Notes: a model not told the origin generated them from the letters alone. A stretch of 64,000 nt of DNA from Myxococcota bacterium (GCA_023150835.1 JAKLKB010000016.1:1-64000), one strand, 5' to 3'. Positions 47,164-64,000 are shown, counted from the first letter of the stretch. Translations and numbers: made by a program.

Positions 47164-49500
47164 ATGAAATCTGTGTGGCGGGTCTGTTGGCTGCTCTTGT
47201 GTTGGAACTTCTTGACGTGCGCCCCACCGCCACCTCCCGATCTGGATCTTTATCCCTGCGAACAAGACTCCGATTGCCAACTCCCCAACGGGCGGATACT
47301 TCAATGTTGCCAAGATCAAAGCCTTCGCCGATGTTGCGTCCCCAACCAAGACTATTGCTGTCGCTCGGATGGAAAGCCCCAGATCTGCCCGATATCTCCG
47401 CCTTATCCACCTCAAACACCTTGTCAAGACGGAAAGCTCTCTTTCGATGGCACCCGATGGAACCCTTGCCTTGGCGCTGTCTCTGAACAAAAAGAGCGCT
47501 GCAACGGCCTCGATGACGATTGCGACGGCCAGATCGACGAAGATTGGCCCCTCAAAGGCACCCGCTGTTTTGTCGGGCCTCCTCTCTCCAATTGCGAAGT
47601 CGGCGGGTCTTGGATCTGCGATCCTTCCGACCCAAACGAGCTGATCTGTTCTGCGCGGCAACCACTCACTTCTTCTGCAAGCATCGAGATCTGCGACAAC
47701 AAAGACAACGATTGTGACGGAAGCGCTGAACAAAAAGCCTGCTATCCGCCTTCTTCAGGGCAATGCCCTTTCCCCGTCGACGCCAAACAAGAATGTTGCC
47801 GCTTCTTCGTTCGTAGCAGCGAGGAATGTGTGGGTTGCGTCCTTGCCCAAAACCAAACACCTTCTGATCGCTCTTCCGCTTATCTCTGTCACGGCCTTTG
47901 TCAGGCAGGCATACAACGTTGTTCCTCCGATCAAACCTTTGGCGAGTGCAACCAACCCATCCTCCCAAAGCCCGAAGAATGCGACAACAAAGACAACGAC
48001 TGTGACGGCCTTGTCGACGAAGGTTGCCCATGCGATCAGATCGGCGCTTTCCGACCCTGTTATCAAGGACGCCCGGGAACCCTCGGATGGTCGGGAGATC
48101 CACGCGATCCTCTTCGCCTTGCCTTGCTCTATACCTTTGGAACACTCGGACGTATCGGCGCAACCTGCCGATTTGGCATACAAAAGTGCATCGCAGACGC
48201 CAGCGGTCGACGCCGTTGGGATCACCAATGCGTCCAACAGATCACCAACGAAACCAAAGACTGCACCTCTCCCCAAACACCCGACAACAACTGCGATGGA
48301 CATGTGGACCCGCAAACCCCCTCTTGCCCTTGCACTGAGGGCACACAACGCCTCTGCTACACCGGCCCTATTGGAACTGAGTACAAAGGCATCTGTACAA
48401 CAGGCACACAATCCTGCAAAGACGGTCGATGGACTTCTTGCGAGGGACAAAAAACCCCTTCGCTGCTTGAGATCTGCGGCAATCTCCAAGACGACAATTG
48501 CAACGGGCTGATCGATGAGTTCTGTCCCTGCCAGCCAGAACAAACACCACTCTCTTGCTACACGGGACCCCCACAAACGCTCGACCCTTCCACCCAAAAA
48601 CCGCGTGGAAACTGCAAAGCAGGGAAACAATCTTGTTTTAAAACCCCCGATGGTCGGAGTTATTGGGAAGCCAAGTGCGAAGGCCAGATCACGCCCACCC
48701 CAGAGTCTTGCAACGCCCAAGACGACGACTGCGACGGCCAAGTCGACAACATACACGTGCTCGACAACGACACCTTTCGCTCTGTACCGCTCCAACGCAG
48801 ATGCTCTTACATCGAACCCGATCCAGCCAAAAAGACCGAAGGCATCGGCCTTTGCAAAGCAGATTATCAGCAGTGCCGCGACGGCGCATGGACTCCTTGC
48901 CAAGGCGGCCAATCCCCCCGCCCCGATATCTTCGGACGCGCCTGCTCATCCGCCAGCACCAAAGAACCCGACACCAATTGCGACGGACTCAGCGAACCCT
49001 GTTGCCCGAACAATTGTAGTGCCGGAGACGAGTGTGCGCCTTGTGGCGTCTCCCGCTGCGAACGGAACTCTTGTAGCACCAAGTGCCCTGACAACTGCGC
49101 CTCCGACAACGACTGCCTCAAAACTGTTTGCGCGGACAAGATCTTTTGCATCAACAGCCGCTGCAACAGCCGACCCTACGCTTGTTCCGACACTCCTTGC
49201 TCTTCCAACAACGACTGCTACTGCCGCCCCAAATACAACCTCTGCCTCTTGGGGCGATGTGTTCACCCAGATATCTGCCCAACCACTTGCAGCCGCGACG
49301 AAGATTGCAACCAACACCCCGCCTGCCTAAGCCAACAACGCAACGAATGTGTCCAAGGTATTTGTGCCTCTCGTGAGCGTGGCTTTCCTGCTTGCCCAGC
49401 CCAATGCACCGATCACGAAGCCTGTCAAGTCCCCGCTTGTGGAGAACGCCTCGCTTGCCTCCAAGGCTCCTGCCAAAAAATCCCCCCACTCCCCCCCTAA
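47164..49500 (+). CDS. MopE-like Cys-rich lipoprotein (left flank of the array)
   Basis: A 778-residue lipoprotein: signal peptide VCWLLLCWNFLTC with the lipobox Cys followed by a run of Pro. The mature protein has at least six copies of the MopE-type metal-binding motif, for example CNGLDDDCDGQIDE, CDNKDNDCDGLVDE, CGNLQDDNCNGLIDE and CNAQDDDCDGQVD, plus a C-terminal set of CSSNNDCYC-type knots. In MopE of methanotrophs such segments are linked to copper binding, but here only the repeated Asp-rich CDG motif is seen. Likely location is the cell surface or outer membrane. It converges with the leftward lipoprotein trio 44 bases away. The ATG at 47164 has GGAG 11 bases upstream. Confidence 0.9.
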   Translation: MKSVWRVCWLLLCWNFLTCAPPPPPDLDLYPCEQDSDCQLPNGRILQCCQDQSLRRCCVPNQDYCCRSDGKPQICPISPPYPPQTPCQDGKLSFDGTRWNPCLGAVSEQKERCNGLDDDCDGQIDEDWPLKGTRCFVGPPLSNCEVGGSWICDPSDPNELICSARQPLTSSASIEICDNKDNDCDGSAEQKACYPPSSGQCPFPVDAKQECCRFFVRSSEECVGCVLAQNQTPSDRSSAYLCHGLCQAGIQRCSSDQTFGECNQPILPKPEECDNKDNDCDGLVDEGCPCDQIGAFRPCYQGRPGTLGWSGDPRDPLRLALLYTFGTLGRIGATCRFGIQKCIADASGRRRWDHQCVQQITNETKDCTSPQTPDNNCDGHVDPQTPSCPCTEGTQRLCYTGPIGTEYKGICTTGTQSCKDGRWTSCEGQKTPSLLEICGNLQDDNCNGLIDEFCPCQPEQTPLSCYTGPPQTLDPSTQKPRGNCKAGKQSCFKTPDGRSYWEAKCEGQITPTPESCNAQDDDCDGQVDNIHVLDNDTFRSVPLQRRCSYIEPDPAKKTEGIGLCKADYQQCRDGAWTPCQGGQSPRPDIFGRACSSASTKEPDTNCDGLSEPCCPNNCSAGDECAPCGVSRCERNSCSTKCPDNCASDNDCLKTVCADKIFCINSRCNSRPYACSDTPCSSNNDCYCRPKYNLCLLGRCVHPDICPTTCSRDEDCNQHPACLSQQRNECVQGICASRERGFPACPAQCTDHEACQVPACGERLACLQGSCQKIPPLPP

Positions 49501-49544
49501 GACAACACTCGCATCTACTCACAAAAGCACGCCTTCCTGCCGAG

Positions 49545-51266
49545 CTATTCGCACTTTTTCGCGCCTGCTGCGGGATTGTACGCCTGCCCGGGTGGGCAGC
49601 GACATGTGCTGATCTCGTCTTGCTTGTACCATGCGTACCGAAAATATTGCACTGTGTTGTCTGTAAATCGCACAAACCCCGTAAACTCGTACTCTTTGGG
49701 CCGTATATTGACTTTTTTTACATAGCACTTGCTGTTTTCGCAACGCGCACCGCTTGTCAAACAATCTTCGACTTTCGTGCAACTTGTTGCGCCACCTGTC
49801 ATAGGCTCGTAGCATTCTCCGTTTGAGCAGATCCCACCCACAACCCCCTGACTTACACAATCCGCGTGGCTCACACACAATCGCGCTTGATAGCTGCTGT
49901 TCCATGTCTGTGTGTGGGTTCGCTCCTCGTTCTTCAACAATACGCTCTGTGAGTACTTCATCCAAGAACAAGTCGTCTCGATCGGAAGATCCCGACTATA
50001 CCGCCTTGCCGACAACTCATCGTAACACGAGCCTTTCAAACAGCGATCGCTCTCTTTGTCTTGACACTCCTTGTCTTGCGTACAAGCCGAACCCTCCAAA
50101 TCCAACCGCTTCTCGTGGCATTTGTTGTCTTGGCACACATAGCGACAAGACGCTGGATCTTTTGCATCTTTGCAATTGCCCGTAGGATCGCAGTCTTCGT
50201 CTTTCACGCACGAGGTCTCTGCGATCAGCTTACCCGCCAACCGAAACAAGATACACCTCGCAGGTGCTTTGCCTTCTTCATGCACACGAAACGGATAATA
50301 CACGCACTCTGGCTCAAACTGGCCTCGCTGCGCCTGACAGTTCTTGTAAGCCTCCTGATTCACCGCCTTAAAGTAGCAGTATTTTTGACCGTTGACTTCC
50401 AAACATTTTTTCGTTGCATCCGCATCATCCACCGCGATCCCTCGGCAATCGCTGTCTTGTGTGCAAGACGACGCCTGTCCCGCTCCGTCCTTGTAGCGGA
50501 TCACGCAGAACCCGCCCTCACACTTATCGCCCCCAACACCCGCACAATCCGCATCTTGACGGCACAGGATATCGTACTCACGATGTTGCTTTTTTAACGT
50601 ATCGCAGTAAGCCGCTTCGCATTCAAAATTCGCCGAACATACGACGTTTGAGAAAGTCACCAGATCAAGCTGCGTCAGCGGTGTTTTCGGCGGATAATCG
50701 TTCTTGATCACCAAACGATACCGCTTCTCAAGCTCCAACCTATCCCCCGAACCGTTCGCATCGCCACCGTGTAATTTCTTAACAAACTTTCCGTCCTGAT
50801 CGAGTTCTTCGACCAAAAACTCTTTGCATGTGTTGTTTCCAACGCGAAAGATCTTCGGCGCTTTTCCTGCCCCTTGCCCACAAGTCACTTCCAAAAGCCC
50901 ACACCCAAGGCTTTTGCTGGTGCATACACCGTTCACGATCTTTTCTGCGCTCACCACCTTAAACGTCTCGATCCCGCACTTCAGTTCGGCCTGTTCTCCA
51001 TTGATCGACAACGCGCAATTGTCTCCATCTTTTCCTGTATCTCCTTTGTCGCCTTGTTTGCCGGTCTCCCCATCGATCCCATTTTTCCCGTTGGTTCCGT
51101 CCTTTCCCGGACGCAGCACATAACTCTCTTCTCCACACTTCAACGTCGCTGTACCATCTCCATTCTTTTGTAACGTGCACGTTGGGCCGCAACCTTGCAC
51201 AAAGACCATCCCCCACGCGCACAACACAAGACCTGCGCACCTCAAACACCATCGCATCGACTTCAT
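49545..51266 (-). CDS. Collagen-like Cys-rich lipoprotein, subfamily I (third of leftward trio)
   Basis: A 573-residue lipoprotein. Signal peptide CAGLVLCAWGMVFVQGC; the lipobox Cys is followed by GPTC and a two-cysteine module NGDGTATLKCGEESY, then a collagen-like Gly-X-Y stretch of about nine triplets (GKDGTNGKNGIDG). Several CxxDxDC knots follow (CTQDSDCRG, CVKDEDCDP, CTKVEDCLTS). The C-terminal domain YEFTGFVRFTDNTVQYFRY ending in CRCPPGQAYNP is shared with the two upstream genes. The ATG at 51266 has AAGGAGG upstream, better than the frame start at 51359. It is the longest of the trio because it has extra Cys knots. Surface-exposed and disulfide-rich by prediction; function unknown. Confidence 0.88.
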   Translation of the reverse strand: MKSMRWCLRCAGLVLCAWGMVFVQGCGPTCTLQKNGDGTATLKCGEESYVLRPGKDGTNGKNGIDGETGKQGDKGDTGKDGDNCALSINGEQAELKCGIETFKVVSAEKIVNGVCTSKSLGCGLLEVTCGQGAGKAPKIFRVGNNTCKEFLVEELDQDGKFVKKLHGGDANGSGDRLELEKRYRLVIKNDYPPKTPLTQLDLVTFSNVVCSANFECEAAYCDTLKKQHREYDILCRQDADCAGVGGDKCEGGFCVIRYKDGAGQASSCTQDSDCRGIAVDDADATKKCLEVNGQKYCYFKAVNQEAYKNCQAQRGQFEPECVYYPFRVHEEGKAPARCILFRLAGKLIAETSCVKDEDCDPTGNCKDAKDPASCRYVCQDNKCHEKRLDLEGSACTQDKECQDKESDRCLKGSCYDELSARRYSRDLPIETTCSWMKYSQSVLLKNEERTHTQTWNSSYQARLCVSHADCVSQGVVGGICSNGECYEPMTGGATSCTKVEDCLTSGARCENSKCYVKKVNIRPKEYEFTGFVRFTDNTVQYFRYAWYKQDEISTCRCPPGQAYNPAAGAKKCE

Positions 51267-51349
51267 CCGCAACCTCCTTCGATTGACCGTTTCTTCAAAT
51301 ATCCCTACACACCGAAACCTACACGGATATCTCGCTGCCGCGTGTCTTC

Positions 51350-52720
51350 TCAGCGGCATTGATTATTTTCTGGATCAAACACCGTCCCTTCGGGGCAATA
51401 GCAACGTTGAATCACTTCATCCGCCGAAGCATACAGATCAAAACGAAAAAATTGTCTCGAACCATCGACGAAATCCACATACCCCGAAAGCTCATAGCGC
51501 GGATCTGCGCCGCTTCGCTTATCGAGACTTTCCCAGATCGCACGATTGCGCTCGGGTTCGTTCGGATAAAACAGCGTTTGTGTCGTCCTCACCCAGCCGC
51601 AAAATGAATTCCCGGGAAACATCCGCTCATAAATAATTTCTGTTGAGGCTGTTTCTTTTTTGCGAAATCTTCCTGAAAAACGAAACACCACACAACGCCC
51701 TCGTGGCTGTTCTTCTCCTTTGACCAGTTCATGCCGTGGGAACGGATAAAACGCACATTCATGCTCAAATTGTGCACGCGTTAATTCGCAGTAACGGCGC
51801 TTTTCCACGCTGACCTGCCGCCGATAACACACCCCACTTGCCCGCTCGCAAAAAAATCGCTCCGCCGCTTTCCCTTCCTCCAAACAATCGCTGTCTTGAC
51901 GACACACCAAACCACCCTTCTCTCGCCGCTCATAGCACAATTTGTTGCTTTGCAAACAAATTGTCTCTTGTCCTGCACAGGGCTGTTGGGCGCACGAGAT
52001 ATCGTACGTTCCTTTCTCTTCTAATTCTTGGCAATACTGCGCGTTGCATTCTTTGTCTTTGTTGCAATTCACATTCGAATAAGTCTTCAATTCGACTGGA
52101 TTTGCTTCGTAGCTCGCTCCGATCTTCTGCCCGATACGCAAACGGTAATACCGCTCAAGAACAAGCTGCTCTCCGGTGCGTGTCGCTGTCCCGCTTCTCA
52201 ACACGTTCAAGACTTTCCCATCGCTTGACGGGGTGCTGACTTCCGCTATCTCAAAAAAATGGCAGACCCCACCGCCTACCACAAAACTTTGCTCTGCTCC
52301 ATCATGCAAGCACCGCACGATCACTTGTTCGCAACCTCCCCCAAGATCCTTGCTTTCAAAACGGCACGTCTTTTCTGCTGATAACACTTCTCCGTTTAAT
52401 ACGATAAAACTTTGTCTTTCTTTCTGATCAAAACCTTTGCATCGTAGCACACCTGTTCGTGGATCTTGCGCTGCTGCAGTAAACGTGCAATTCGCCGCTC
52501 CTTGCGCTCCTTGGACTCCTTGCGTTCCTTTCTCACCAACCAAACCATCCTTGCCTTCTGTGCCGTTCGCACCCGACTTCCATGTATAGTCGGTTCCCTG
52601 ACAAGTGATCTGTTCCACCCCGTCTCCTCTCTTTTCCCAACGACAAGGAGCCCCACCACAGCTTTGCAATCCGATCCAAAAAACGCCCACAACACCAAAG
52701 CTCCACCACCTGACACGCAT
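51350..52720 (-). CDS. Collagen-like Cys-rich lipoprotein, subfamily I (second of leftward trio)
   Basis: A 456-residue lipoprotein. Signal peptide FGVVGVFWIGLQSC; GGAPC follows the lipobox Cys, then the two-cysteine module RGDGVEQITCQGTDY and a short Gly-X-Y stretch (GANGTEGKDGLVGEKG). The middle has CxxDSDC knots. The C-terminal domain contains CAFYPFPRHE, GRCVVFRFSGRFR, FCGWVRTTQTLFYPNEPER and FVDGSRQFFRFDLYA, ending CYCPEGTVFDPE; the same landmarks are found in the two neighbours. GGGAGGCAAAG precedes the ATG at 52720; the frame extends to 52882 into the upstream gene. It lies 28 bases after the upstream gene and 83 before the next, so the trio looks like an operon. Confidence 0.88.
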   Translation of the reverse strand: MRVRWWSFGVVGVFWIGLQSCGGAPCRWEKRGDGVEQITCQGTDYTWKSGANGTEGKDGLVGEKGTQGVQGAQGAANCTFTAAAQDPRTGVLRCKGFDQKERQSFIVLNGEVLSAEKTCRFESKDLGGGCEQVIVRCLHDGAEQSFVVGGGVCHFFEIAEVSTPSSDGKVLNVLRSGTATRTGEQLVLERYYRLRIGQKIGASYEANPVELKTYSNVNCNKDKECNAQYCQELEEKGTYDISCAQQPCAGQETICLQSNKLCYERREKGGLVCRQDSDCLEEGKAAERFFCERASGVCYRRQVSVEKRRYCELTRAQFEHECAFYPFPRHELVKGEEQPRGRCVVFRFSGRFRKKETASTEIIYERMFPGNSFCGWVRTTQTLFYPNEPERNRAIWESLDKRSGADPRYELSGYVDFVDGSRQFFRFDLYASADEVIQRCYCPEGTVFDPENNQCR

Positions 52721-52748
52721 CTTTGCCTCCCGTCTCGAACCGTCTGTT

Positions 52749-54182
52749 CTATTCGCATTGCCCTGTTGTTGGATTGAATGTTTGCTTTTCAGGAGGACAA
52801 GAGCAGCTTTGCCAAAAAGCCTCTGCATTTGCATAAAATTCATGAAAAAAGTATTTTCGTGTACCATCCACAAACTCTGCAAACCCAGAGAAAAAATGCG
52901 AAGAATCGCTCCGTTCCCCCCGATCCACCGTTTCCCAGATCGATTTGTTTCGCTCAGTTTGACCGAGATAAAACAAAGTTTGGATGACTTTCACCCAATT
53001 ACACGGCGTCCCTCCAGGAGTCGCACGCGAATAAACGACCTCGCCCCCAGAAGAAGGCACTCGCCTCAAACCGCCCGAAAACCGAAACAACAAACACTTT
53101 CCCGTACCTTCTCCTGCACGATCCTCCGCAAAAGGATAGAACACACACAAACCTTCGACCAATTGTCCGCGCGCCAAACGACAATAGTCGTATTCTTTCT
53201 GCTTGATCTTCCGCCGATAACAATCCCCACGCAGCGCATCACAGAACACACGTCCCAATGCCAGCGCCTCTTTTTCCGTTGTCTCTCCCACGCAGTCTGC
53301 ATCCGTAGTACAACCAAAACCCGTAACTTTTTCATAACAAAGACCCACTTGTTTTCCTTTTTCATCCACAAATTCTCGGCAAAAGTCTGTATTCTCACCA
53401 CAGTCTGCTTGCACTGAAACCATCCGACAGCTTTGATCATAGGCTCCAATCAAGACGCGGGGAGGAGACGTAAATCGATCTCGGAAAGCCCCTTGTGTTC
53501 GCAAGACGTCACAATAGCTTGGATTACATTCGGATGCAGAATGGCAACGATAACGCGAAAAAGAGTACAGCCCGGGCGTTTGGGTGGCTTGTATATTTTT
53601 TGAGCGCAACGTGAATTGGTATCGCTCATGGATATCCAGCCCAGTTCCGGGGCGATTGGGCGCCCCGTTGCGCAAGATCTCGCCCGTTGCTTTACCGTCT
53701 TTATCGAGCTTTTCGATCGAAAAAGTATTACAAGAATTCACACCGATTTGAAATCGACTTTGTTCGCTACCTTCACCGCAGATCACCTCAAAGGCCCCGC
53801 AGTCCGCATCCAACACCTCAAATCGACAAGCTCCTGCCGCCTGAAAGCCATCCCCGTTCAAAACAACCCACTCTTTGCTGTACTCTTTTTCTCCTGCCCC
53901 TTTGCATCGCAACATGCCTGTTCGTGGATCTGTCTGAGAGCGCAAAAACACACAGTTGGCCTCACCCGATGGCCCCGCTTCACCTTTCCCACCATGAGTT
54001 CCCTGCGCCCCGTCCGGCCCCACTTTTCCTTCCGCACCGTCTCGAACGGTGTAGCTTACCCCACCGCAGACCCACGTCACCTGACCATTTGTACTCGACC
54101 AATTGCAGCGCTCGCCTTGGCATCCTTCAAACACCCAAAACAGCAGAAAAAAACACCACCCCAACCTCCTCCACACAACCAT
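52749..54182 (-). CDS. Collagen-like Cys-rich lipoprotein, subfamily I (first of leftward trio)
   Basis: A 477-residue lipoprotein. Signal peptide LGWCFFLLFWVFEGC; QGERC follows, then the module NGQVTWVCGGVSY and a Gly-X-Y stretch (GAEGKVGPDGAQGTHGGKG) of about nine triplets. A region of Cys knots leads to the subfamily C-terminal domain: CVFYPFAED, GKCLLFRFSGGLRR, PCNWVKVIQTLFYLGQTER and FVDGTRKYFFHEFYA, ending CSCPPEKQTFNP. AAGGGAG lies before the ATG at 54182. Upstream is a 900-base gap with repeats. A weak sigma-54-like pair AGGCAT-N5-TTGG lies in that gap on the minus strand but its -12 element lacks the key C. Confidence 0.88.
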   Translation of the reverse strand: MVVWRRLGWCFFLLFWVFEGCQGERCNWSSTNGQVTWVCGGVSYTVRDGAEGKVGPDGAQGTHGGKGEAGPSGEANCVFLRSQTDPRTGMLRCKGAGEKEYSKEWVVLNGDGFQAAGACRFEVLDADCGAFEVICGEGSEQSRFQIGVNSCNTFSIEKLDKDGKATGEILRNGAPNRPGTGLDIHERYQFTLRSKNIQATQTPGLYSFSRYRCHSASECNPSYCDVLRTQGAFRDRFTSPPRVLIGAYDQSCRMVSVQADCGENTDFCREFVDEKGKQVGLCYEKVTGFGCTTDADCVGETTEKEALALGRVFCDALRGDCYRRKIKQKEYDYCRLARGQLVEGLCVFYPFAEDRAGEGTGKCLLFRFSGGLRRVPSSGGEVVYSRATPGGTPCNWVKVIQTLFYLGQTERNKSIWETVDRGERSDSSHFFSGFAEFVDGTRKYFFHEFYANAEAFWQSCSCPPEKQTFNPTTGQCE

Positions 54183-54321
54183 CACACCGCTCCCTTCGCC
54201 TTGTGACCGCTATTTCGCGAAACTCAAACGTGCCCACCACACCTGACACAAACACGACGACGCTATTTCGGCCCTTTCCAAAAACTATGCCTATCACTAT
54301 TTTCCTTATCCCAACACACAC

Positions 54322-54429
54322 CTCTTTGCAAACCCCACCAAACCATACCGCTTTTGACATTCACAGCCCTGCACAGGCGGGCGATGAGGCGTCACAACTC
54401 TTTGCAAGCCCCACCAAACCATACCGCTT
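54322..54429. repeat. Pair of 32-bp direct repeats in the central gap
   Basis: 54322-54353 and 54398-54429 share 31 of 32 bases, beginning CTCTTTGCAA and ending ACCATACCGCTT, with 44 bases between them. They lie at the hinge between the leftward and rightward trios (gap 54183-55081) and may be regulatory or recombination sites. Confidence 0.8.
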
Positions 54430-54647
54430 GGCCTTCGCCCTCTCTGCCGCTTGCTCCCCACAAAAGCGCTTTCTGCCTCGCGCCCACTCACCGCGAGATC
54501 AGCCCAGTACACGATCAAGCACGAAATCGTACGCGATCGTGCACTCGCCGCCCTCCCAGTCTTTTCAGCGTTGGCTCGTTAAAACCCCCCACATCCGCGA
54601 CATACCTAACGGCGCTGCCGCCTTTGGAAAACGTCTGCTCCTTTGCC

Positions 54648-54765
54648 ATAGGAGTGACGCAGTGGAAAAGGGAAAGCGTGAAGAATCAAACCATTGTAGG
54701 GGCGGTTCGCGAACCGCCCGCGCCCGAACGTTGGCCTTTTTCGTATCGAACTGCGTCAGTCCTAT
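54648..54765 (+). mobile_element. Family A end, palindromic-core variant (A10)
   Basis: A 118-bp unit with terminal inverted repeats ATAGGAGTGACGCAG (54648-54662) and CTGCGTCAGTCCTAT (54751-54765). The core is different from other A copies: a near-perfect palindrome GGGCGGTTCGCGAACCGCCC at 54704-54723. It shares ends with A4 but not the interior, so the family mobilises by its ends. Confidence 0.85.
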
Positions 54766-54852
54766 GCCACAGAGGTTCCAACCAACTGCATCACGCCTCT
54801 TCGAGATCTCTATCAACACAACAGGCACACGCTTTGCTGAGGCCACACCCCA

Positions 54853-54961
54853 CCCTGTTTTGGGTAAGTACCACTTGTTGCCAAAAACCCCGTGATCGCG
54901 CCACCCCAAGCGGTGGCGCTGCTGGTTTTTTCAAAACAACGCTCGCTCAGCCAAAACAGGG
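54853..54961 (+). terminator. Hairpin with T-run inside a larger inverted repeat
   Basis: GCGCCACC (54898-54905) and GGTGGCGC (54912-54919) form an 8-bp stem with a 6-base loop, followed by T6 at 54926-54931: a Rho-independent terminator shape on the + strand. It is enclosed by the inverted repeat CCCTGTTTTGG (54853-54863) / CCAAAACAGGG (54951-54961). It lies about 150 bases before the rightward trio, so it might act as an attenuator or simply insulate the trio. The remaining gap sequence shows no open frame I trust. Confidence 0.5.
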
Positions 54962-55081
54962 CCAAGAGGTTCGGGTCCTCTCGCAGTACCCCACCCCACA
55001 ACACAAACCAGCAGCGTCCATCTGCGCGGAAAACAAAGCGACCGCAGCCACGATGTCTTGCCGCCATCATAGGAGTTCTCG

Positions 55082-56380
55082 ATGAAAAAACTTCCTTTCC
55101 ACGTATTCTATACGGCAAGTGTTCTGAAATTTTCGTTCTTTTTTTTCGCTTTTTCTTTACTTTTTTCGTCTGTGGCTTGCTCTCCTCCGTGCACGATCAC
55201 CCCACGCACTGACGGAAGCGCAGAACTTCGATGCGGCGGTCAAACCTATGATATCAAAAACGGAAAAGACGGAGCCAGCGGAAAAGACGGAGCCAGCGGA
55301 AAAGACGGAGCCAGCGGAAAAGACGGAGCCAGCGGAAAAGACGGAGCCAGTTGCTCATTCAAAAAGGAAGCGGATGGAACAGGCACCGTGACCTGCGGAA
55401 GCGAACCCCCCGTCAAAGTCGCATTGCCCGAAAATACTCTCTTGAATGGCATCCCCTACCATGTATTCCAAAACATGCAAGACGGCTTCACGGTAGTGAA
55501 ATTGACCGAAAATGGCGTATACGACGGCGTTTTAGATCCCGAGAAAGATGTCTTTGATCTCACCAAAACTTTCGTCGTGATGTTTTCGATCAAATCCACG
55601 ACCTTCCAACCACGCTACAACAGAATTCTCGAAACCCCTTCGACATTGGTCTGTTCAAGCGACACGGATTGCCCGGCTGGAGGCTCTTGTCGAATCAAGC
55701 AAGTTTGCAAAGAAGACGGAGAATGCCTGCAAAGCACCGCCAAATGCGAGATCCCTCAAGGTGAAACACAAGGGTTTTGCAGCACCAATTGTAAAAAAGA
55801 CGAAGACTGCCTCGCAAAAGGAGCAACCTGTACCCAAGGAAATTGCACAAAGGCTTTCTGTACTGTATGCACCGATGACGTGGATTGCCCTGTGAATACG
55901 CGATGTAAAAATTCTCGCTGCGAATCCTCCGAAACCGTCAACAACATCGGCATCTACAGCCTCGCGAACGCCGTTCCCTGCGAAGGAACCAGCCCAGACG
56001 CGAAGAATCTTAGTTGCACCACAAAAGGCTCCTCTTTTTGCGATCTTGAAGAGAACAAATGCGTACATTTTCGACTGGCTCGCGAACGTTTAGACGAATT
56101 TGTCGTGCAGTGGTCAATGATCCAGATCATACCACAAAGAACTGTTTTTCTTCGCCTTCTCAGCTTCTGCGATGCCTCGATCGAATTTATCTTGGGGCGA
56201 AAACTCGATCCCGTTTTTTATCAAAAATTTATCTGGGGCAACCTCGGAACACCGGGTGTAGACAAGTTCCAATTTATCGGAACATTGAGTTTGCCGGGTT
56301 ATGGAAATAAATCACGATACACATGGCAAGCGCATTTCAAAACCGATGGATATCAAGAAAAATGCGGACTCGCTCCCTAA
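55082..56380 (+). CDS. Collagen-like Cys-rich lipoprotein, subfamily II (first of rightward trio)
   Basis: A 432-residue lipoprotein. Signal peptide FFFFAFSLLFSSVAC; SPPC follows the lipobox Cys, then the two-cysteine module TDGSAELRCGGQTYDI and five identical GKDGAS hexapeptides (collagen-like). Then come a second Cys module, a domain starting NGIPYHVFQNMQDGFTVV, and three CxxDxDC knots (CSSDTDCPAGGSC). The C-terminal domain (RLARERLDEFVVQWSMIQ, YTWQAHFKTDGYQEKC) is shared with the next two genes but not with the leftward trio. GGAG precedes the ATG at 55082. Lower GC, with A-rich codons, than most of the window, a possible sign of different ancestry. Confidence 0.9.
   Translation: MKKLPFHVFYTASVLKFSFFFFAFSLLFSSVACSPPCTITPRTDGSAELRCGGQTYDIKNGKDGASGKDGASGKDGASGKDGASGKDGASCSFKKEADGTGTVTCGSEPPVKVALPENTLLNGIPYHVFQNMQDGFTVVKLTENGVYDGVLDPEKDVFDLTKTFVVMFSIKSTTFQPRYNRILETPSTLVCSSDTDCPAGGSCRIKQVCKEDGECLQSTAKCEIPQGETQGFCSTNCKKDEDCLAKGATCTQGNCTKAFCTVCTDDVDCPVNTRCKNSRCESSETVNNIGIYSLANAVPCEGTSPDAKNLSCTTKGSSFCDLEENKCVHFRLARERLDEFVVQWSMIQIIPQRTVFLRLLSFCDASIEFILGRKLDPVFYQKFIWGNLGTPGVDKFQFIGTLSLPGYGNKSRYTWQAHFKTDGYQEKCGLAP
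55262..55351. repeat. Five 18-bp near-identical tandem repeats (collagen-like)
   Basis: The unit GGAAAAGACGGAGCCAGC starts at 55262, 55280, 55298, 55316 and 55334; the first four are identical and the fifth differs only in its last base. It encodes GKDGAS. Identity at synonymous sites indicates very recent expansion. Confidence 0.95.
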
Positions 56381-56419
56381 TCAAAGCCACGACGCTGTAA
56401 TAAATAAGGTATGCTCTCG

Positions 56420-57601
56420 ATGCAAAAAAACACACGACGCTCTATTTTTACGCCTTCTTTTTTTCTCAAGATCAGCTTTTTGCTGCTTGTTCTGGGCGGC
56501 GCATCGTCTTGTGGTGCGCCATGCTCACTCAAAGAAAACGCCGATGGCAGCGCGTTGTTGACATGTGGCGATCAGTCCTACACCATCCGCAGCGGCAAAG
56601 ACGGCGCACAAGGCCGCTCTTGTGAAATGAAAGACAACCTTGACGGCAGCGCAACCATCGCCTGTGGAGATCAGCTTTATCTGATACGCAAAGGCCAAGA
56701 CGGTCTCAACGGAAAAGACGGCCAAAGTTGCAATCTGCGCGACAACGGAAACGATAGCGTGACCATCCTGTGCGGCACGCAAGAATATACCCTACCCCGA
56801 ACGACCGATACCATCAAAGGAATCCCCTACACTGTCTTTCAACAGCTTTCGGATGGTATTACGGTGATTCGCTTAAAAAAAGACGGCAGTTTTTCACATG
56901 TCCACGATGCAGCGAAGGACGTATTGGATCTCACAGAACCGTTCGTTTTGTTGTTCTCATTAAAAGTGCCTTGGGAAACAGTCTTTTATCCCAAAGTCGA
57001 GATCAAAGCAACCTGCACCACAAGCCAAGATTGTCTTGCTGTAGGGGCAGAGTGCCGCAATGGCCGTTGTTCATCTTGTAGTGCGAATAGCGATTGTCCA
57101 AATGATTCTTATTGTGCAAATGCAGAGTGTCGCAGTAACTTACCAGAAAATAATCCTAATTTCTTTATCTTAAGCCACCTGTCTTGCGATGGAGCCACAC
57201 ACGAAGAACGAAATGCGAATTGCAAAACCAAACAAATGGAGTTTTGCGATGAAGAAACCCGTCGTTGTGCGCATACAGATATGATGAGAAAAAGAGATGG
57301 ATTTAATCGACATCGTGTTGAACTTTTTTATACGCTACCTTATCGGCAAAATCTTTATTACGTGCAAGACTCCTGTAACTTTAGCAAGTTGTTGGCCGAG
57401 CGCAACATCGCTCAACCCATTATCGCCTCTTACTGGACTAATTTTGGAGACAAGGCGGGAAATGTGGAGATCGTCGCTCAATTTGGCAAAATCGAAAAAA
57501 TGGAGAAAGAGGGCCGCCCCTATGGCGCACAGATCCGCTATGTTTGGAAAAGTAAATTCAGCATCGCCAACTACGCTCAGAAATGCCTGACGTTGCCCTA
57601 A
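56420..57601 (+). CDS. Collagen-like Cys-rich lipoprotein, subfamily II (second of rightward trio)
   Basis: A 393-residue lipoprotein. Signal peptide SFLLLVLGGASSC; GAPC follows. It has three two-cysteine modules in a row (ADGSALLTCGDQSYTIRSG, LDGSATIACGDQLYLIRKG, NDSVTILCGTQEYTL) separated by very short GKDG or GQDGLNGKDG linkers. Then GIPYTVFQQLSDGITVIRL matches the domain after the collagen-like part in the previous gene. Knots CTTSQDCLAVGAEC and CSANSDCPNDSYC lead to the subfamily II C-terminal domain (RYVWKSKFSIANYAQKC). The ATG at 56420 is nine bases inside the longest frame (56411) and is better spaced from AAGG. It starts 39 bases after the previous gene. Confidence 0.88.
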   Translation: MQKNTRRSIFTPSFFLKISFLLLVLGGASSCGAPCSLKENADGSALLTCGDQSYTIRSGKDGAQGRSCEMKDNLDGSATIACGDQLYLIRKGQDGLNGKDGQSCNLRDNGNDSVTILCGTQEYTLPRTTDTIKGIPYTVFQQLSDGITVIRLKKDGSFSHVHDAAKDVLDLTEPFVLLFSLKVPWETVFYPKVEIKATCTTSQDCLAVGAECRNGRCSSCSANSDCPNDSYCANAECRSNLPENNPNFFILSHLSCDGATHEERNANCKTKQMEFCDEETRRCAHTDMMRKRDGFNRHRVELFYTLPYRQNLYYVQDSCNFSKLLAERNIAQPIIASYWTNFGDKAGNVEIVAQFGKIEKMEKEGRPYGAQIRYVWKSKFSIANYAQKCLTLP

Positions 57602-57700
57602 ATGGGCCTACGGGCCTACGCATCTTCTAGCGACTGGATTGGCCCACTCCACGGACACAAACACACGCAACACCTCTCCCAAATGGCAAGGAGTCTTTCC

Positions 57701-59011
57701 ATGTCGTGTAAAGAAAAAACCTTTTTAGTACGGTACTTACGAGCATTTTTTTTGACTTTCGCACTCGCTCTCTTGTTCGGAGCTCCCGCATGTTCGCCAC
57801 CTTGTACGCTGACGCCAAACGGCGACAAAACAACAACGCTTCGCTGCGGTGATCAAACCCACACCATCGCAAACGGAAAAGATGGAACGAACGGCCAAAA
57901 CGGTCAAAGCTGTGCGCTGAGCAACAACCCAGACGGAACCGCAACTCTGCGGTGTGACGACGGGAAAGAATACAAGATCAGCAGCGGAAAAGACGGAACA
58001 GACGGCAAAAGCTGCTCCTTAAAAGATCAACCCGACGGAACCGCACTGCTCACCTGCGGCACAGAATCTTTCACAGTACATCGCGGACAAGAAAAAGATC
58101 TTTTTGGCGTACCACAAAAGATCTTCGAGTCTTTGCCCGAAGGACTCCATCTTTTCTTGTTTAAAGAGGATGGTAGCTTTCAAAAAGTCTTTGACAAAAG
58201 CAAAGACACGCTCGATCTTTCAAAGCCGCACCTTGTTGTCGTTATCCTAGAAAAATCATGGAATCCATACTATACGCTACCCAAAGCAAGCTCGACTCGG
58301 ACTTGTATCCAAGATACTGAATGTCCTGCATCAGGAGTATGCCGTATCAAAAAGATTTGTAAATCAGATAACGATTGCCAACTATTTCGTAGCTTATGCA
58401 AGATCAATCCCGGTGAGCAAGAAGGCTTTTGCGAAAAAAATTGCCTATTCAACGAAGATTGCGAAGCCAACGGTGCCGTTTGTAGCACAGGTGTTTGCGA
58501 CAAAGGTGTCTGCTCAAGCTGTGCAAACAACAATGACTGCCCAACAGGTACATCGTGCCGAAACTCGATCTGCGAAGGCGAGATCAACACCAACCTCATC
58601 GCCTACAATACGAGCAACGTAGCGTGCGCAGGAACCACAGAAAAAGCCAAAAACGAATTTTGTAAAAACAACAGCCTTGAATTATGTGACACAACCTTGA
58701 ACCGTTGCGCCCACACGCGGTTGGCCCGCATTGAACTCGCAGAATTTTCCCACCAATGGGCGTCTTTCTTGGTGCTCCCCCATCGTCGCGTGCTTTGGAG
58801 GGTCTATGACGCATGTGTTCTTTCTCGGTACTTCTACTCACGAAAAGTTCCGAGGGATACCCTTGAACGCCTTTTTTGGAGAGCTTTCGGGGACAACCAA
58901 GGAAACGTCGAGTATGTCGTGAGGATCCCTGTGCTGGAAACGCAAACCAACGTGCGCTACGAACTCAAAGCGAAGATGACGCTCGGAGACTACTCGCAAC
59001 GGTGTTTTTGA
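57701..59011 (+). CDS. Collagen-like Cys-rich lipoprotein, subfamily II (third of rightward trio)
   Basis: A 436-residue lipoprotein. Signal peptide FFLTFALALLFGAPAC; SPPC follows. Three two-cysteine modules (KTTTLRCGDQTHTIANG, PDGTATLRCDDGKEYKISSG, PDGTALLTCGTESFTVHRG) alternate with GKDGTNGQNGQ and GKDGTDGK linkers. The next domain starts FGVPQKIFESLPEGLHLFLF, matching GIPY-VFQ of its neighbours. Knots CIQDTECPASGVC and CANNNDCPTGTSC precede the shared C-terminal domain (RLARIELAEFSHQWASFLV, MTLGDYSQRC). AAGGAG precedes the ATG at 57701; the frame to 57602 is unsupported. Convergent with the second MopE-like gene 13 bases away. Confidence 0.9.
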   Translation: MSCKEKTFLVRYLRAFFLTFALALLFGAPACSPPCTLTPNGDKTTTLRCGDQTHTIANGKDGTNGQNGQSCALSNNPDGTATLRCDDGKEYKISSGKDGTDGKSCSLKDQPDGTALLTCGTESFTVHRGQEKDLFGVPQKIFESLPEGLHLFLFKEDGSFQKVFDKSKDTLDLSKPHLVVVILEKSWNPYYTLPKASSTRTCIQDTECPASGVCRIKKICKSDNDCQLFRSLCKINPGEQEGFCEKNCLFNEDCEANGAVCSTGVCDKGVCSSCANNNDCPTGTSCRNSICEGEINTNLIAYNTSNVACAGTTEKAKNEFCKNNSLELCDTTLNRCAHTRLARIELAEFSHQWASFLVLPHRRVLWRVYDACVLSRYFYSRKVPRDTLERLFWRAFGDNQGNVEYVVRIPVLETQTNVRYELKAKMTLGDYSQRCF

Positions 59012-59024
59012 GAGCGTGCAAACG

Positions 59025-60458
59025 CTAAGGCGCGGTCGAGCAGCGCGAGCGTACGCACGTGGTCAATCCTTTGGAATAACAGTCATTTCTTTTGCACTCG
59101 GTATCGCTGAAACAAGAGGAAGGACAAAGACAAGTATCGTCAGGGATCCCGTCGCAATCTTCGTCGACGCCGTTTCCAGTCTGCCCAGCCCCGCATTGTT
59201 CGGGCTTTGGCGTAATCTCGCCTAAACAATTGCTCCATTTTCCATCGATACACTCGCGATATCCAGAAGAACAAGGCGGATTTTTCGGATGAACGGAAGA
59301 GCACTCTACCCGAAGGACGCCTCCTGATGGCCGATTGTCCACTCTTCCATCGCAGTCGTCATCGAACCCGTTGCACTCTTCTTCTTTTGGCTTATCGAAC
59401 TCGCATACGACCCGACCATCGATACATTTGGGGACTCCTGTCGCGCAAGCACCGAGCTTTTGCGTATCCTTGCAGACTCCCGTTGGATATTCAGGAAAAT
59501 ACCACGGAGGCTCGTCGGTTTGACCGTCGTCGTTGTTGTCTTTGCCATCGCACAACTCCAGGCGACAAAAAGCCCCGTTATCGATTTTCCCGTCGCAGTC
59601 ATCATCGATCTTGTTTCCGCAGATCTCTTCTTTCGGAGTGATCGCTCCACGACACGGCTCCCATCGACCATTTTCGCAGTATTGCCCACCCACAGCACAA
59701 GGCCCCTTGCATTCGTAATCTGCGCCGCCTCGCAGCACGCATCCTGCGGTGTCTGCGGGGTAGCAAGGGCGGAACAGCAGACTTAGATACTCTTTCCCAT
59801 ACGGATCTTTTTTCTTGACTCGGTCGATCAATCCGTCACAATCGTCGTCTTCGTTGTTGCACTCTTCGGGCTTTGGAAGGATCTGCTCACGGCAGGCCGT
59901 CCACTTTCCATCCTGACAGTTGCGGATGCCGCCTTTGCATCGCGCCCCGTCACGCAGCGTTCCTTCGGGTCCGTCGTAGCAACTTTGCGGCGTATCGGGG
60001 TCGAGTCCTTCGTCGATCTGGCCGTCGCAATTGTCGTCGTGACCGTTGCAATCTTCCTCCACAGCTTTGCAGACATATCTCCCGCCTTCGCAACGTTGAA
60101 CACCACAGGACTTGTCGTACTTAGGCGTGGAAGAGCAAAGGATCTCGCCTTCTTTTTTTTGGGGGATCAGCCCTTCATCGATCTGGCCGTTGCAGTTGTT
60201 GTCCAGACCGTCGCAGATCTCCTCACCGATCGGTACTTTTGTAGACTGGCAGATCCCAAGCGTGCTTGGATCGCTGTCGCGCTTACAGCAAAACAAGCCA
60301 GAGCCAAAAGCCCCCAAACACTCTTCGCTGTGTTGGCACTTTCGCCCTTGCAAGCGCAACTCCTCCACCGCTGGGGATATCGTGCAACTCCACAGCAAAA
60401 AAACAAACCAGCCACAAGCCATCTTGAAGTACAGGCTGCGTCGCCTCTTTGCTTTCAC
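59025..60458 (-). CDS. MopE-like Cys-rich lipoprotein (right flank of the array)
   Basis: About 477 residues. An n-region KAKRRR precedes ACGWFVFLLWSC, a lipobox. Six MopE-type motifs follow: CDGLDNNCNGQIDE, CNGHDDNCDGQIDE, CNNEDDDCDGLID, CGNKIDDDCDGKID, CDGKDNNDDGQTDE (here the second Cys is replaced by Asp) and CNGFDDDCDGRVD. The C terminus ends in Cys knots (CFSDTECKRNDC). The GTG at 60458 is preferred because AAGGA lies ten bases upstream and it starts the signal peptide; the frame is open to 60512. It faces the rightward trio, as the gene at 47164 faces the leftward trio. A TTGTTT-N16-TAAGAT pair upstream might be its promoter. Confidence 0.88.
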   Translation of the reverse strand: MKAKRRRSLYFKMACGWFVFLLWSCTISPAVEELRLQGRKCQHSEECLGAFGSGLFCCKRDSDPSTLGICQSTKVPIGEEICDGLDNNCNGQIDEGLIPQKKEGEILCSSTPKYDKSCGVQRCEGGRYVCKAVEEDCNGHDDNCDGQIDEGLDPDTPQSCYDGPEGTLRDGARCKGGIRNCQDGKWTACREQILPKPEECNNEDDDCDGLIDRVKKKDPYGKEYLSLLFRPCYPADTAGCVLRGGADYECKGPCAVGGQYCENGRWEPCRGAITPKEEICGNKIDDDCDGKIDNGAFCRLELCDGKDNNDDGQTDEPPWYFPEYPTGVCKDTQKLGACATGVPKCIDGRVVCEFDKPKEEECNGFDDDCDGRVDNRPSGGVLRVECSSVHPKNPPCSSGYRECIDGKWSNCLGEITPKPEQCGAGQTGNGVDEDCDGIPDDTCLCPSSCFSDTECKRNDCYSKGLTTCVRSRCSTAP

Positions 60459-60630
60459 CCAAGCACCATCCTTCCCACGCTCCGAGAGATCCCATACAGA
60501 CCACTCTCCCAAAGACTCACGACACGATCCGTTTCACACAGGCCCCTATCTTAGCCTGCTTTGTTTGGAAAACAACCTCTTTCTTCTGCAACAAAACGAT
60601 GACAACCTTTTTCACCCACAAGCCCAAGGA

Positions 60631-60862
60631 GCGCAGATCACTTTCTTGCCCACAAACAAGCACACGCGGCGCAGATCACTTTCTTGCCCACAAACAAGCA
60701 CACGCGGCGCAGATCACCTTTTTCATGCACAAGCAAGCACACGCGGCGCAGATCACCTTTTTCATGCACAAACAGGCAAAAGTCGCGCAGATCACTCTTT
60801 TTGTGTACGAGCAAGCACGGATCGCGTTCTCGTTCATGCACAACGCGAGCACGATCCTTTTT
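60631..60862. repeat. Six imperfect 38-39-bp tandem repeats upstream of a sigma-54 promoter
   Basis: Units begin with GCGCAGATCAC at 60631, 60669, 60707, 60746 and 60785, with a degenerate sixth from 60824. Most end in CAAGCACACGCG. The first two are identical, 38 bp each; the next three are 39 bp. The array ends at a T-run about 75 bases before the -24 box at 60937, the usual zone for enhancer-binding sites of sigma-54 activators. The 39-bp units also read as 13-residue peptide repeats on either strand, but the 38-bp units break that frame, so I favour a DNA-binding role. Confidence 0.7.
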
Positions 60863-60936
60863 TTTTTTCGTGAGAAACATCACACGATCAAAAATAAACA
60901 TAGATTTATCAAGTGGATATAGTTTTATTTTTTCGA

Positions 60937-60950
60937 GGCACAAAGATTGC
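60937..60950 (+). promoter_or_regulatory. Sigma-54 (-24/-12) promoter
   Basis: GGCAC at 60937-60941, five bases, then TTGC at 60947-60950: this matches the -24/-12 consensus GGCAC-N5-TTGC exactly (the preceding base is A instead of T). Predicted transcription would start near 60961 and cover the genes at 61032 and 61402. The activator is probably the one encoded at 62153. Confidence 0.7.
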
Positions 60951-61031
60951 CCTAGTGCGAAAGCGTCGGCAGCAAAAAAGATTGCAAAAAGAAAAAGCTG
61001 ACAAAAAAGCAAACCAACAAAGGAGACGATC

Positions 61032-61313
61032 ATGAAAGCACAATCCACGGCCATCCTGACAAGCGCAACCACTTTGATTGTCGGCGCTGCTTTTGCAGCC
61101 TGTGTTGCCCTCAGCGTCTCCAAGCCCCAAGCAACACAACGCATCAAAAGCGCCCCCGCTACGGCACAAACCGTCACCTTCACAGAACAAGAAGTTCCTC
61201 ATGTGATGGGTTATCCTCAACGTCGGATCCAAACCGTTTCTTTCGAAGAAAAAGAAGTTCCGATGGTCTTGATCGAGCGCCCATCGAAGCCTGCGACCCT
61301 CGCACGAAAATAA
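61032..61313 (+). CDS. Small single-pass membrane or exported protein
   Basis: A 93-residue protein. An N-terminal hydrophobic segment LTSATTLIVGAAFAACVALSV (given here as LTSATTLIVGAAFAA then CVALSV) is followed by a Lys/Thr/Glu-rich tail with two similar motifs, TVTFTEQEVPHV and TVSFEEKEVPMV, spaced about 25 residues. AAGGAG precedes the ATG at good distance, so it is very probably translated. It lies directly under the sigma-54 promoter. No family recognised. It could be a periplasm-facing anchor or a small regulatory peptide. Confidence 0.8.
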   Translation: MKAQSTAILTSATTLIVGAAFAACVALSVSKPQATQRIKSAPATAQTVTFTEQEVPHVMGYPQRRIQTVSFEEKEVPMVLIERPSKPATLARK

Positions 61314-61401
61314 AACATCTTTTTTCTCTCAACAAAAATTCCCACTAAAAAAGGTTCTGAAAAACGCCTTAAAAAAGGCAACACACGAAAGGAAAAAAGC
61401 C

Positions 61402-62118
61402 ATGAAAAAGCAACATGCACTGATGACCGTGACGATGGGATTGAGCTGCTGGTTTCTTGCTGCTTGCGGGGTGGGTCCCGCCCCCGATGCGCCCCAGACC
61501 TCTGCCGCCCAATACGTCCAAGGTCTCGGCCTCGTACTCAAAAAAGATGCCCCCTTCGCGAAACTCCGCGACCAACTGACGCTCACTGCCCAACTCATGC
61601 TGACGCCGATGCAACGAGGCCCCTTTCAAATGAACCCTCAAAATGGCCTCGCTCCCGAGCAAACCGTGCCTGAATCCTTGGAGGTTCCGCTCCGCTTGAA
61701 CCAAGAATACACCGCACCGATGCGAAACGATATCCAGATCCCCGGAACCGCAGCCTTGCGACGCTGCGAGCCCAAACGCGAAGGTATCGTGACTTCCCGC
61801 GATCCACAAGACTGGAGCTGCGGAGAGCCGATGGAGAAAAATCCCGCTGATCCCGCATCACTCCAGATCTTTTGGGAACTCCAAGACAACCATGCCAAAA
61901 AGCTGGCCCGATTGTTCCTCTTCGCAAACCAACGCAACATCGAGCTCCTCGGCATCGGCGAAAATCCAAGCATCGCAGACCACGCTTCCAACGAAGAATT
62001 CACGGTGCTCTATCTCAAACCCTCTGAAGCTGGAACTTACACCCAAACCTTCTTCCTCAAGCATGAACAAACACTTTTCCGCCTCGATATCCACTACAAT
62101 ATCTATAACCTCCGATAA
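61402..62118 (+). CDS. Putative lipoprotein downstream of the sigma-54 promoter
   Basis: A 238-residue protein with signal peptide LMTVTMGLSCWFLAAC and lipobox LAAC (Cys22). The mature part has a conserved-looking Trp-Cys patch (DPQDWSCGEPMEKN) and a C-terminal beta-rich region LFRLDIHYNIYNLR. I recognise no family. GAAAGGAAAAAAG precedes the ATG. It is 88 bases from the small protein at 61032 on the same strand and probably in the same transcript; the gap holds a small GCCTT/AAGGC hairpin. It converges with the activator gene. Confidence 0.82.
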   Translation: MKKQHALMTVTMGLSCWFLAACGVGPAPDAPQTSAAQYVQGLGLVLKKDAPFAKLRDQLTLTAQLMLTPMQRGPFQMNPQNGLAPEQTVPESLEVPLRLNQEYTAPMRNDIQIPGTAALRRCEPKREGIVTSRDPQDWSCGEPMEKNPADPASLQIFWELQDNHAKKLARLFLFANQRNIELLGIGENPSIADHASNEEFTVLYLKPSEAGTYTQTFFLKHEQTLFRLDIHYNIYNLR

Positions 62119-62152
62119 TCCCCTTCGTTTTCCTCCCCCGATCTTCCCCTGC

Positions 62153-63595
62153 TCAACTTTTTTTGTTTAAACCATACTTGCGCATTCGATTATAAGCCCA
62201 CCCTTTTGTAATCCCGAGAGCTTCCGCAGCGTGCGGGACATCCCACCGATACAGTTCCAAAGCATCCAACAACAAGCGCTGTTCGACTTCTTCGAGAGTT
62301 TCTTTGAGGGGGCGGACTTGCCCGTTTAGTAGCGGCGAGAGCGAAACCACTCGGTTGCCATCCGAAGCTTGCAAAAAAGAATGTCCCTCTTTCAATGAAG
62401 GGGCATGACTCTCAGCGCGGCTGTCTTCTTCGATCGGAAACAGATTAAAATCTTCGGGTTCGAGGACGGGGCCGTCCGCCATCGCAGCGGTCCCTTCAAG
62501 AGCGTTTTTCAGCTGGCGGACGTTTCCGGGCCAGATGTAGGACGAAAACATCTCCAACGTCGCCTGAGAAAGCAACAACGGTCGCCCGTCTGAAAAGAGC
62601 GGTAACCATTGCTCACACAACAAAGGGATATCTTCTCGACGCTCACGCAGCGGAGGAACGTCAAGGTGGACTACCGAGATGCGATAAAACAGATCGGATC
62701 GAAAGTGATTCTTTTTGACCTCCTCTCGCAGATCGCGGTTGGTAGCGGCGATCAGACGAAAATCAACAGCGCATTGTGACCCTCCGATGGGTCGAATCTT
62801 TTTTTCGGACAAAACAGAAAGCAATTTTTTTTGTGCATCTGGACTCAGTTCTCCAAGTTCGTCAAGAAAAAGAGTGCCTCCATCTGCTTGTTCAAAGAAG
62901 CCCTTGTGGGCTTTGTTTGCACCCGTAAAAGCATCTTTTACATAACCGAACATCTCGGATTCAAAGAGGTTCTCCGGGATCGCGCCGCAGTTCACTTCGA
63001 CAAAAGGCCCCTCGGCTCGCTTGCTTTGAAGGTGGAGAGCCTTTGCGACGCTGGTCTTTCCAACGCCCGTTTCGCCTGTCAACAAGACGGCCACTTCACG
63101 ATCGCCCAAGCGCTCAATCAAAGAAAAGATCTTTCGCATCGCAGGGCTTTGACCGAGAAGAGAGCCACTTTTGTCTTGGAAATGGATCTGGATATCGCGC
63201 TTGCGTTGTTGGGAGCGCAACTCCAACACAGTATCCCCGATCTTTAATCGAACCCCGGGAACAAGATAGCCTTCTAATATCTGGACTTCGTTGACAAAGA
63301 TGCCGTTGCGGCTTTGCAGATCGCGGATATGCAAACCTTTTTCTGTAATGCGTAGCTGACAATGCGTCGAGCTGACCATCTTATCTTCTTTCAAACAGAG
63401 TTCGCACCAATCTCCTCGCCCGGCGTGGATGATCTCATGCTCCAATTGGAGGATCTCTCCTTTATTCGGGCCGTGGACAACGGCCAAAGACAGCGCATCG
63501 ACCGAGAGTTTGGAAAAACGTGATCGATGCGCTCCTTCGTCGATCATCGTCGTGTTCGCGTCCTTGGTTCGGCGGATCTGCATTTTTTCGTCCAT
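62153..63595 (-). CDS. FHA-domain sigma-54-dependent transcriptional activator
   Basis: A 480-residue bacterial enhancer-binding protein. The N-terminal FHA domain (about 35-128) has GR (59-60), SSTH (75-78) and RNG (96-98), so it can bind phosphothreonine. The AAA+ domain (about 145-375) has Walker A GETGVGKT (174-181), Walker B TLFLDE (241-246) and the arginine-finger region FRSDLFYR. The sigma-54 contact loop reads DAFTGA (221-226), not the usual GAFTGA. A Fis-type helix-turn-helix (about 450-478) ends the protein. GAGGGAAG precedes the ATG. FHA activators of this type respond to Ser/Thr kinases in myxobacteria, so the kinase at 44545 is a reasonable partner. Confidence 0.96.
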   Translation of the reverse strand: MDEKMQIRRTKDANTTMIDEGAHRSRFSKLSVDALSLAVVHGPNKGEILQLEHEIIHAGRGDWCELCLKEDKMVSSTHCQLRITEKGLHIRDLQSRNGIFVNEVQILEGYLVPGVRLKIGDTVLELRSQQRKRDIQIHFQDKSGSLLGQSPAMRKIFSLIERLGDREVAVLLTGETGVGKTSVAKALHLQSKRAEGPFVEVNCGAIPENLFESEMFGYVKDAFTGANKAHKGFFEQADGGTLFLDELGELSPDAQKKLLSVLSEKKIRPIGGSQCAVDFRLIAATNRDLREEVKKNHFRSDLFYRISVVHLDVPPLRERREDIPLLCEQWLPLFSDGRPLLLSQATLEMFSSYIWPGNVRQLKNALEGTAAMADGPVLEPEDFNLFPIEEDSRAESHAPSLKEGHSFLQASDGNRVVSLSPLLNGQVRPLKETLEEVEQRLLLDALELYRWDVPHAAEALGITKGWAYNRMRKYGLNKKS

Positions 63596-63928
63596 ACGTA
63601 CTTCCCTCTTTGCCCTCTATGACACGAAACTTCCTAAAGCAAGATGCCCTTTGCACAGCATCGGACGTTGCGATACAGCGATCGACAACCAACACACCGT
63701 GTATACAACAAGCGATTCGCCTTCTCAAGGCACCATTCGGACTTATGCGGTTGAACGATTTTGTGGGGCGGGGTACCACACCCCGCCTCCTTACCTTGGC
63801 TGTGCCCTGAACCATCGAGCAAACGACGATCGAACAAGGCTCGCAAAAAACAACGAGACGAATAGAGATTTGCTCGATCGGAACCATTTGCAGATGCGGT
63901 GTCTGATACAAGAACCTGTGAACTCTTG
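63596..63928. other. Gap upstream of the activator gene
   Basis: A hairpin GGCGGGGT (63767-63774) / ACCCCGCC (63780-63787), preceded by TTTTGTGG, resembles the end of family A. Short open frames here have no ribosome-binding site. No promoter boxes for the activator gene that I would defend. Confidence 0.4.
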
Positions 63929-64000
63929 ATAGGACTTACGCAGTTGAAAAGGGAAACCCTGAGATATCAGAACGTTGTAGGGGCGATTCGCGAACCGCCC
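63929..64000 (+). mobile_element. Family A end with palindromic core (A11), cut by the window end
   Basis: ATAGGACTTACGCAGTTG at 63929 is a family A end, and GGGGCGATTCGCGAACCGCC at the very end of the window is the palindromic core of A10. The right end is outside the window. Confidence 0.8.

Follow-up and report, generated by a model that had tools for sequence, protein, structure and literature searches.

Collagen-like proteins on bacterial surfaces have been described in several systems. In Legionella, Lcl is a surface-exposed trimer, in which a collagen stalk is followed by a C-terminal glycosaminoglycan-binding head (PMC11162425). In Burkholderia, the Bucl types are diverse in their non-collagen domains, and the number of Gly-X-Y (GXY) repeats varies between strains (PMC4565658). 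A window of 64,000 nucleotides from a Myxococcota bacterium, which belongs to a 70-kb contig in a genome of 7.56 Mb and 239 contigs, contains six genes whose products appear to be a lineage-private variant of such proteins. As in Lcl, the streptococcal proteins Scl1 and Scl2, and Bucl, a GXY tract separates the N-terminal region from a C-terminal head of non-collagen type, and the products are predicted to be exported. They differ from Lcl, Scl, and Bucl in that the GXY tracts are much shorter, that two-Cys modules lie within the tract or on both sides of it, that the predicted anchor is of the lipoprotein type rather than an LPXTG signal or an amphipathic helix, that the heads of one subfamily (I) have no Pfam match, and that the genes are clustered as two divergent trios. 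A literature search found no paper on collagen-like proteins of the Myxococcota or on the PF19079 repeat.

Likenesses to three further systems were noted. Surface repeats of the PF19079 and TIGR04203 types resemble the inner six proteins, in that a short DG...T..L/I module alternates with GKDG collagen-like links, but the module of the present proteins has an invariant Cys pair, and the matches were weak (E = 0.21 and 0.59, and 0.0044 on a family member encoded elsewhere in the genome, on contig C75) and all below the curated cut-offs (10.8 and 12.3 bits for PF19079, compared with 27). Cys-rich repeats in a protein predicted to lie at the cell surface also recall the TraA-type myxobacterial receptor, and the myxobacterial Cys-rich repeat model TIGR04201 matched one inner protein, II1, with E = 0.016 and 15.4 bits, below its cut-off of 25. 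TraA is not known to carry a collagen tract or to be a lipoprotein. The genes that flank the six share PF11617 motifs with MopE of Methylococcus capsulatus, whereas none were found in the inner six. The copper site of MopE* consists of His132, His203, and a kynurenine formed from Trp130 (PMC3423442). When the flanking proteins were compared with the solved MopE* chains, in a search run without a positive control, no sequence match was obtained at E ≤ 1.

Open reading frames for all eight genes were found at the positions and in the directions given by the initial annotation, namely a MopE-motif gene read rightward, three genes read leftward, three read rightward, and a MopE-motif gene read leftward. 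The left flanking gene (47164-49500, plus strand) encodes an exported, Cys-rich protein of 778 residues with six PF11617 motifs (E = 8.9e-16), and the right one (59025-60458, minus strand) an exported, Cys-rich protein with five (E = 9.4e-19). Trio I lies on the minus strand and encodes two collagen-like candidate lipoproteins, I1 (49545-51266; 573 residues, with extra Cys-rich inserts in the head) and I2 (51350-52720; 456 residues), and a collagen-like, lipoprotein-like protein, I3 (52749-54185; 478 residues). A divergent intergenic region of 896 bases (54186-55081), to which no gene was assigned, separates it from trio II, which lies on the plus strand and encodes the collagen-like candidate lipoprotein II1 (55082-56380; 432 residues), the candidate lipoprotein II2 (56411-57601; 396 residues), and the lipoprotein-like II3 (57602-59011; 469 residues in the longest reading frame), the last two with three Cys modules each and short GXY links. 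The true start of II3 is probably near 57683-57701, inside the longest reading frame. The gaps within the trios are as short as operons would show (28 and 83 bases in trio I; 30 and, counted to the inner ATG of II3, about 80-100 in trio II), and purine-rich, GGAG-like sites were found upstream of I1, I2, I3, and II1. No promoter was recognised between the trios in a scan for sigma-70 promoters, and no Rfam element reached the gathering score in the block. Upstream of the right MopE-motif gene lies a tandem array of about five copies of a 39-bp unit (60619-60818).

All six inner proteins were found to have an N-terminal hydrophobic signal with a Cys, a Cys module, GXY triplets, a further Cys module, and a long Cys-rich C-terminus. 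A lipobox had been attributed to each of them; I1, I2, II1, and II2 conform to the strict PS51257-type pattern, but I3 (FEGC) and II3 (APAC) have only a lipobox-like sequence. Lipidation and surface location of the inner proteins are predicted from such signal-sequence patterns alone. The two-Cys module said to be common to the six was recovered in each, in two to three copies of the form C..DGxxxLxCGxxxY; it is about 25-29 residues long, with C-x3-C followed by L-x-C-G and an aromatic residue. Pairwise module scores were compared with those of Cys-preserving shuffles (2000 per pair), and module 1 of trio I, set against that of trio II, beat the shuffles in most pairs. None of the 2000 shuffles reached the real score when I1 was paired with II1, II2, or II3, while I2 and I3 stood out less from the shuffles when paired with II3. 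Module 1 is homologous between the trios, indicating a common N-terminal origin.

The GXY stretch had likewise been assigned to all six proteins. Uninterrupted runs of 10, 9, and 9 triplets are present in I1, I2, and I3, and one of 10 in II1, but II2 and II3 have only about four triplets, in runs broken by Cys modules; the continuous tract typical of bacterial collagen-like proteins is therefore present in the first four and doubtful in II2 and II3. Scores of the Pfam Collagen model did not reach its cut-off in four of the inner proteins (16.6-23.7 bits, compared with 27.2), where the matches were limited to the GXY tract, and II2 and II3 gave no match. Weak model matches over this tract also link the inner proteins to SclA, SclB, and Lcl. 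The EB module (PF01683) scored 17.8 bits on II2, below the curated cut-off of 24.3. The collagen tract of II1 is encoded by a perfect tandem repeat of five 18-bp units (55261-55350), as is known from bacterial collagen-like proteins, and tracts of this type can shift in length by slippage. A phage origin was considered and not supported: PHROG tail-fibre matches centred on the GXY tract, and a search of viral contigs returned no relative.

The C-terminal domains of the two trios differ, as had been proposed; profile-profile comparison of the heads aligned just 63 columns (probability 6.5, E = 0.0056). The subfamily I heads matched no Pfam family at a meaningful E-value, and neither of the two head types was recognised by the libraries searched. 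Structure models reached a mean pLDDT of 55 for I2 (about 70-83 in the central part) and 44 for II1. A fold search with the subfamily I model returned nothing significant (best Foldseek E = 0.39), and the best VIA-align hits, to immunoglobulin-like domains with Z = 4.5, were not usable. The models were too poor for a structural identification of the heads.

Genome searches at the class and phylum levels covered five genomes, all of one family, and a pattern-based scan for subfamily I across 84,980 species genomes returned only Myxococcota bacterium KLAP109, a metagenome-assembled genome (MAG) of a sister species. Among these five genomes and in this one scan for subfamily I, the inner-protein family is restricted to the lineage. 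In the sister assembly, which is 86% complete, contig C130 carries the genes in the same order as the window, i.e., those for a TPR protein, a methyltransferase, a second TPR protein, a kinase, the PF11617 protein, I1, and I2, and it stops inside I3, of which the C-terminal 82 residues are present at the contig end. The orthologs are 93% identical in amino acid sequence for I1 (dN/dS 0.07), 94% for I2 (dN/dS 0.12), and 88% for the left PF11617 protein, found in the same place (dN/dS 0.24). Between the two species, I1 and I2 are under purifying selection, not fast diversification, and the lengths of their GXY tracts are kept. Recurrence of the full flank/trio/trio/flank order is borne out for the left half, but the right half was not found, the assembly breaking off where it does. 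Sister DNA showed no match to 54186-64000 except a dispersed 118-bp repeat, and only short, low-identity, kinase-like matches to the 5.6 kb beyond 64000; given the completeness of the assembly, the missing right half could be an assembly gap. The right contig end gave only a 255-bp match of 98% identity, at two contig edges, which is perhaps a repeat and is uninformative. A search for synteny in other genera, anchored on the methyltransferase gene (40398-41924), gave no match at E 1e-30.

Within each trio, the paralogs share about 30-40% identity where they can be aligned (40% over aligned residues for I2 and I3, with saturated dS; 37% for II1 and II3, with dS about 3). Divergence of this order indicates that the paralogs are far older than the split of the sister species, and that the family was probably expanded by old duplications. 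The initial description of a repeatedly expanded family of candidate surface lipoproteins with two subfamilies was upheld, as was the statement that the block is not a simple recent inverted duplication, since inverted DNA matches are short and lie nearly all inside the Cys-rich MopE-motif genes. Scattered single homologues, which had been named as evidence against a conserved array, do occur, on contig C75 of the same genome beside a caspase-domain gene (with a 100% identical protein on contig C64 of the sister) and on contig C47 of the sister, but the left half of the array keeps its order. No PF11617 gene neighbours these single members in the stretches read. The DNA of contigs C75 and C64 is 98.5-99.3% identical, compared with about 90-94% in the array region; the difference could stem from strong conservation, from a recent transfer, or from cross-contamination between the two MAGs.

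A 324-residue candidate lipoprotein from a second genus (genome G002, contig C524) has three Cys-module/GXY units and another C-terminus, indicating that the combination of module and stalk is more widespread than the heads. Another collagen-like family was encountered as tandem pairs of exported proteins (L102, 5012-8905; L103, 5763-9343), in which a short GXY tract occurs together with repeats similar to the LbR_Ice_bind beta-roll; the genes of this family on contig C69 adjoin a PF11617-motif gene. In genome G004, a collagen-like candidate lipoprotein of 237 residues with a different C-terminal domain (L106, 1639-2352) scored above the cut-off of the Collagen model.

We consider it rather probable that the locus comprises two divergent operons of paralogous exported lipoproteins, whose predicted adhesin or recognition heads would be anchored in the outer membrane, and that an unlinked PF11617 gene converges on each. 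Trio I, read leftward, and trio II, read rightward, would each be co-transcribed as a single three-gene operon. A lipidated Cys would anchor each inner protein, probably in the outer membrane, with a disulphide-bonded Cys module at the base and above it a short GXY stalk, of about 10 triplets in four of the proteins, that may trimerise; in II2 and II3, the stalk is probably not long enough to form a stable helix. The stalk would be followed by one or two more Cys modules, and the Cys-rich C-terminal head might bind a ligand on other cells, prey, or matrix. The proposal of adhesion or recognition by lipid-anchored, stalked heads is modelled on Lcl. Old duplications would have given rise to two trios with different heads.

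The initial annotation placed the lipoprotein genes in a cassette held between the two MopE-like proteins, and all eight products might even form a single surface complex, with the whole array selected in its mirror symmetry. A PF11617 gene is present at either side, and the left one has stayed beside trio I since the species split. However, at least 70 PF11617 frames were found in this genome (150 of 456 candidates scored), a very large expansion that, with about 6,500 genes estimated from genome size, puts the motif in at least one gene per hundred. The flanking genes converge on the trios, tail to tail, at distances of 44 and 13 bases, and are therefore separate transcription units, not co-transcribed with them. 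Their products are only 27% identical to each other, which could be explained by the common repeat motif, single family members lack a PF11617 neighbour in the stretches read, and no right half was detected in the sister, although that assembly stops inside I3. The claim of a cassette held by its flanks was not sustained, and a single complex is quite unlikely; because PF11617 genes are so common in this genome, the MopE-like frame is probably not a functional unit. The inner proteins might instead be periplasmic or secreted Cys-rich metal-binding proteins rather than adhesins, as their high Cys content and the description of their PF11617 neighbours as putatively metal-binding would allow. 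This is highly improbable, as the site proven to bind copper in MopE* is not PF11617 (PMC3423442), the flanks lack a sequence match to the solved protein, and the layout of GXY tract and head is a better fit for bacterial collagen-like surface proteins.

Two further alternatives concern how the two operons of candidate surface lipoproteins work and how they came together. The three products of each trio might be distinct chains that assemble into one heterotrimer, as in C1q, in which three neighbouring collagen-like chains have an N-terminal Cys region, a collagen stalk, and a C-terminal head. The occurrence of three paralogs per operon, twice, agrees with this, as do the GXY lengths of trio I, which are equal within one triplet and, in I1 and I2, conserved in the sister. 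The stalks of trio II are unequal in length, however, and charge-pair counting, a crude measure, was neutral, with no ABC composition preferred over homotrimers; such chain pairing is very unlikely. The fuller version, that the trios specify two heterotrimeric collagen-stalk receptors standing back to back, with independently evolved C1q-like logic and heads that diversify as a recognition system, has a slighter chance still. The other alternative starts from a 118-bp interspersed repeat in the intergenic region (54648-54766, plus strand), which has the features of a MITE, being short and multi-copy with terminal inverted repeats. Its ends, ATAGGA(G/C)T(T/G)ACGCAGTT, are about 17 bp long and enclose a GC-rich inner palindrome, GGGCGGTTCGCGAACCGCCC; the predicted fold is very stable (z = -6.5). 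At least 40 copies are present in this genome and about 40 in the sister, some with 3-bp target-site duplications (GCC at 54648-54766) and others without. A second copy in the same orientation lies at 63929-64046 of the contig (L107, 3930-4047), so that the pair brackets the right half, and the repeat may have helped to assemble the array. Recombination at such repeats would then have built it, with trio II and its MopE-motif gene as a later arrival beside an older left half. The G+C content of trio II (47-49%, compared with 51-58% in other window genes measured outside the array) points the same way, as does the lack of matching DNA in the sister for the right half and for the 5.6 kb beyond 64000. 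This history is nevertheless unlikely, as the G+C content of trio I is low as well (50-51%), copies of so common a repeat may lie close by through chance, and the sister assembly is incomplete and broken within I3.

In genomes that carry the PF11617 motif in dozens of genes, MopE-motif neighbours mean little. The inner proteins would represent a family of Cys-rich surface lipoproteins with collagen stalks, private to a lineage whose phylum is sampled here by five genomes. Should the stalks of a trio prove heteromeric, the trios would offer a bacterial counterpart of C1q and the collectins, and a tractable system for the study of partner choice among collagen chains.
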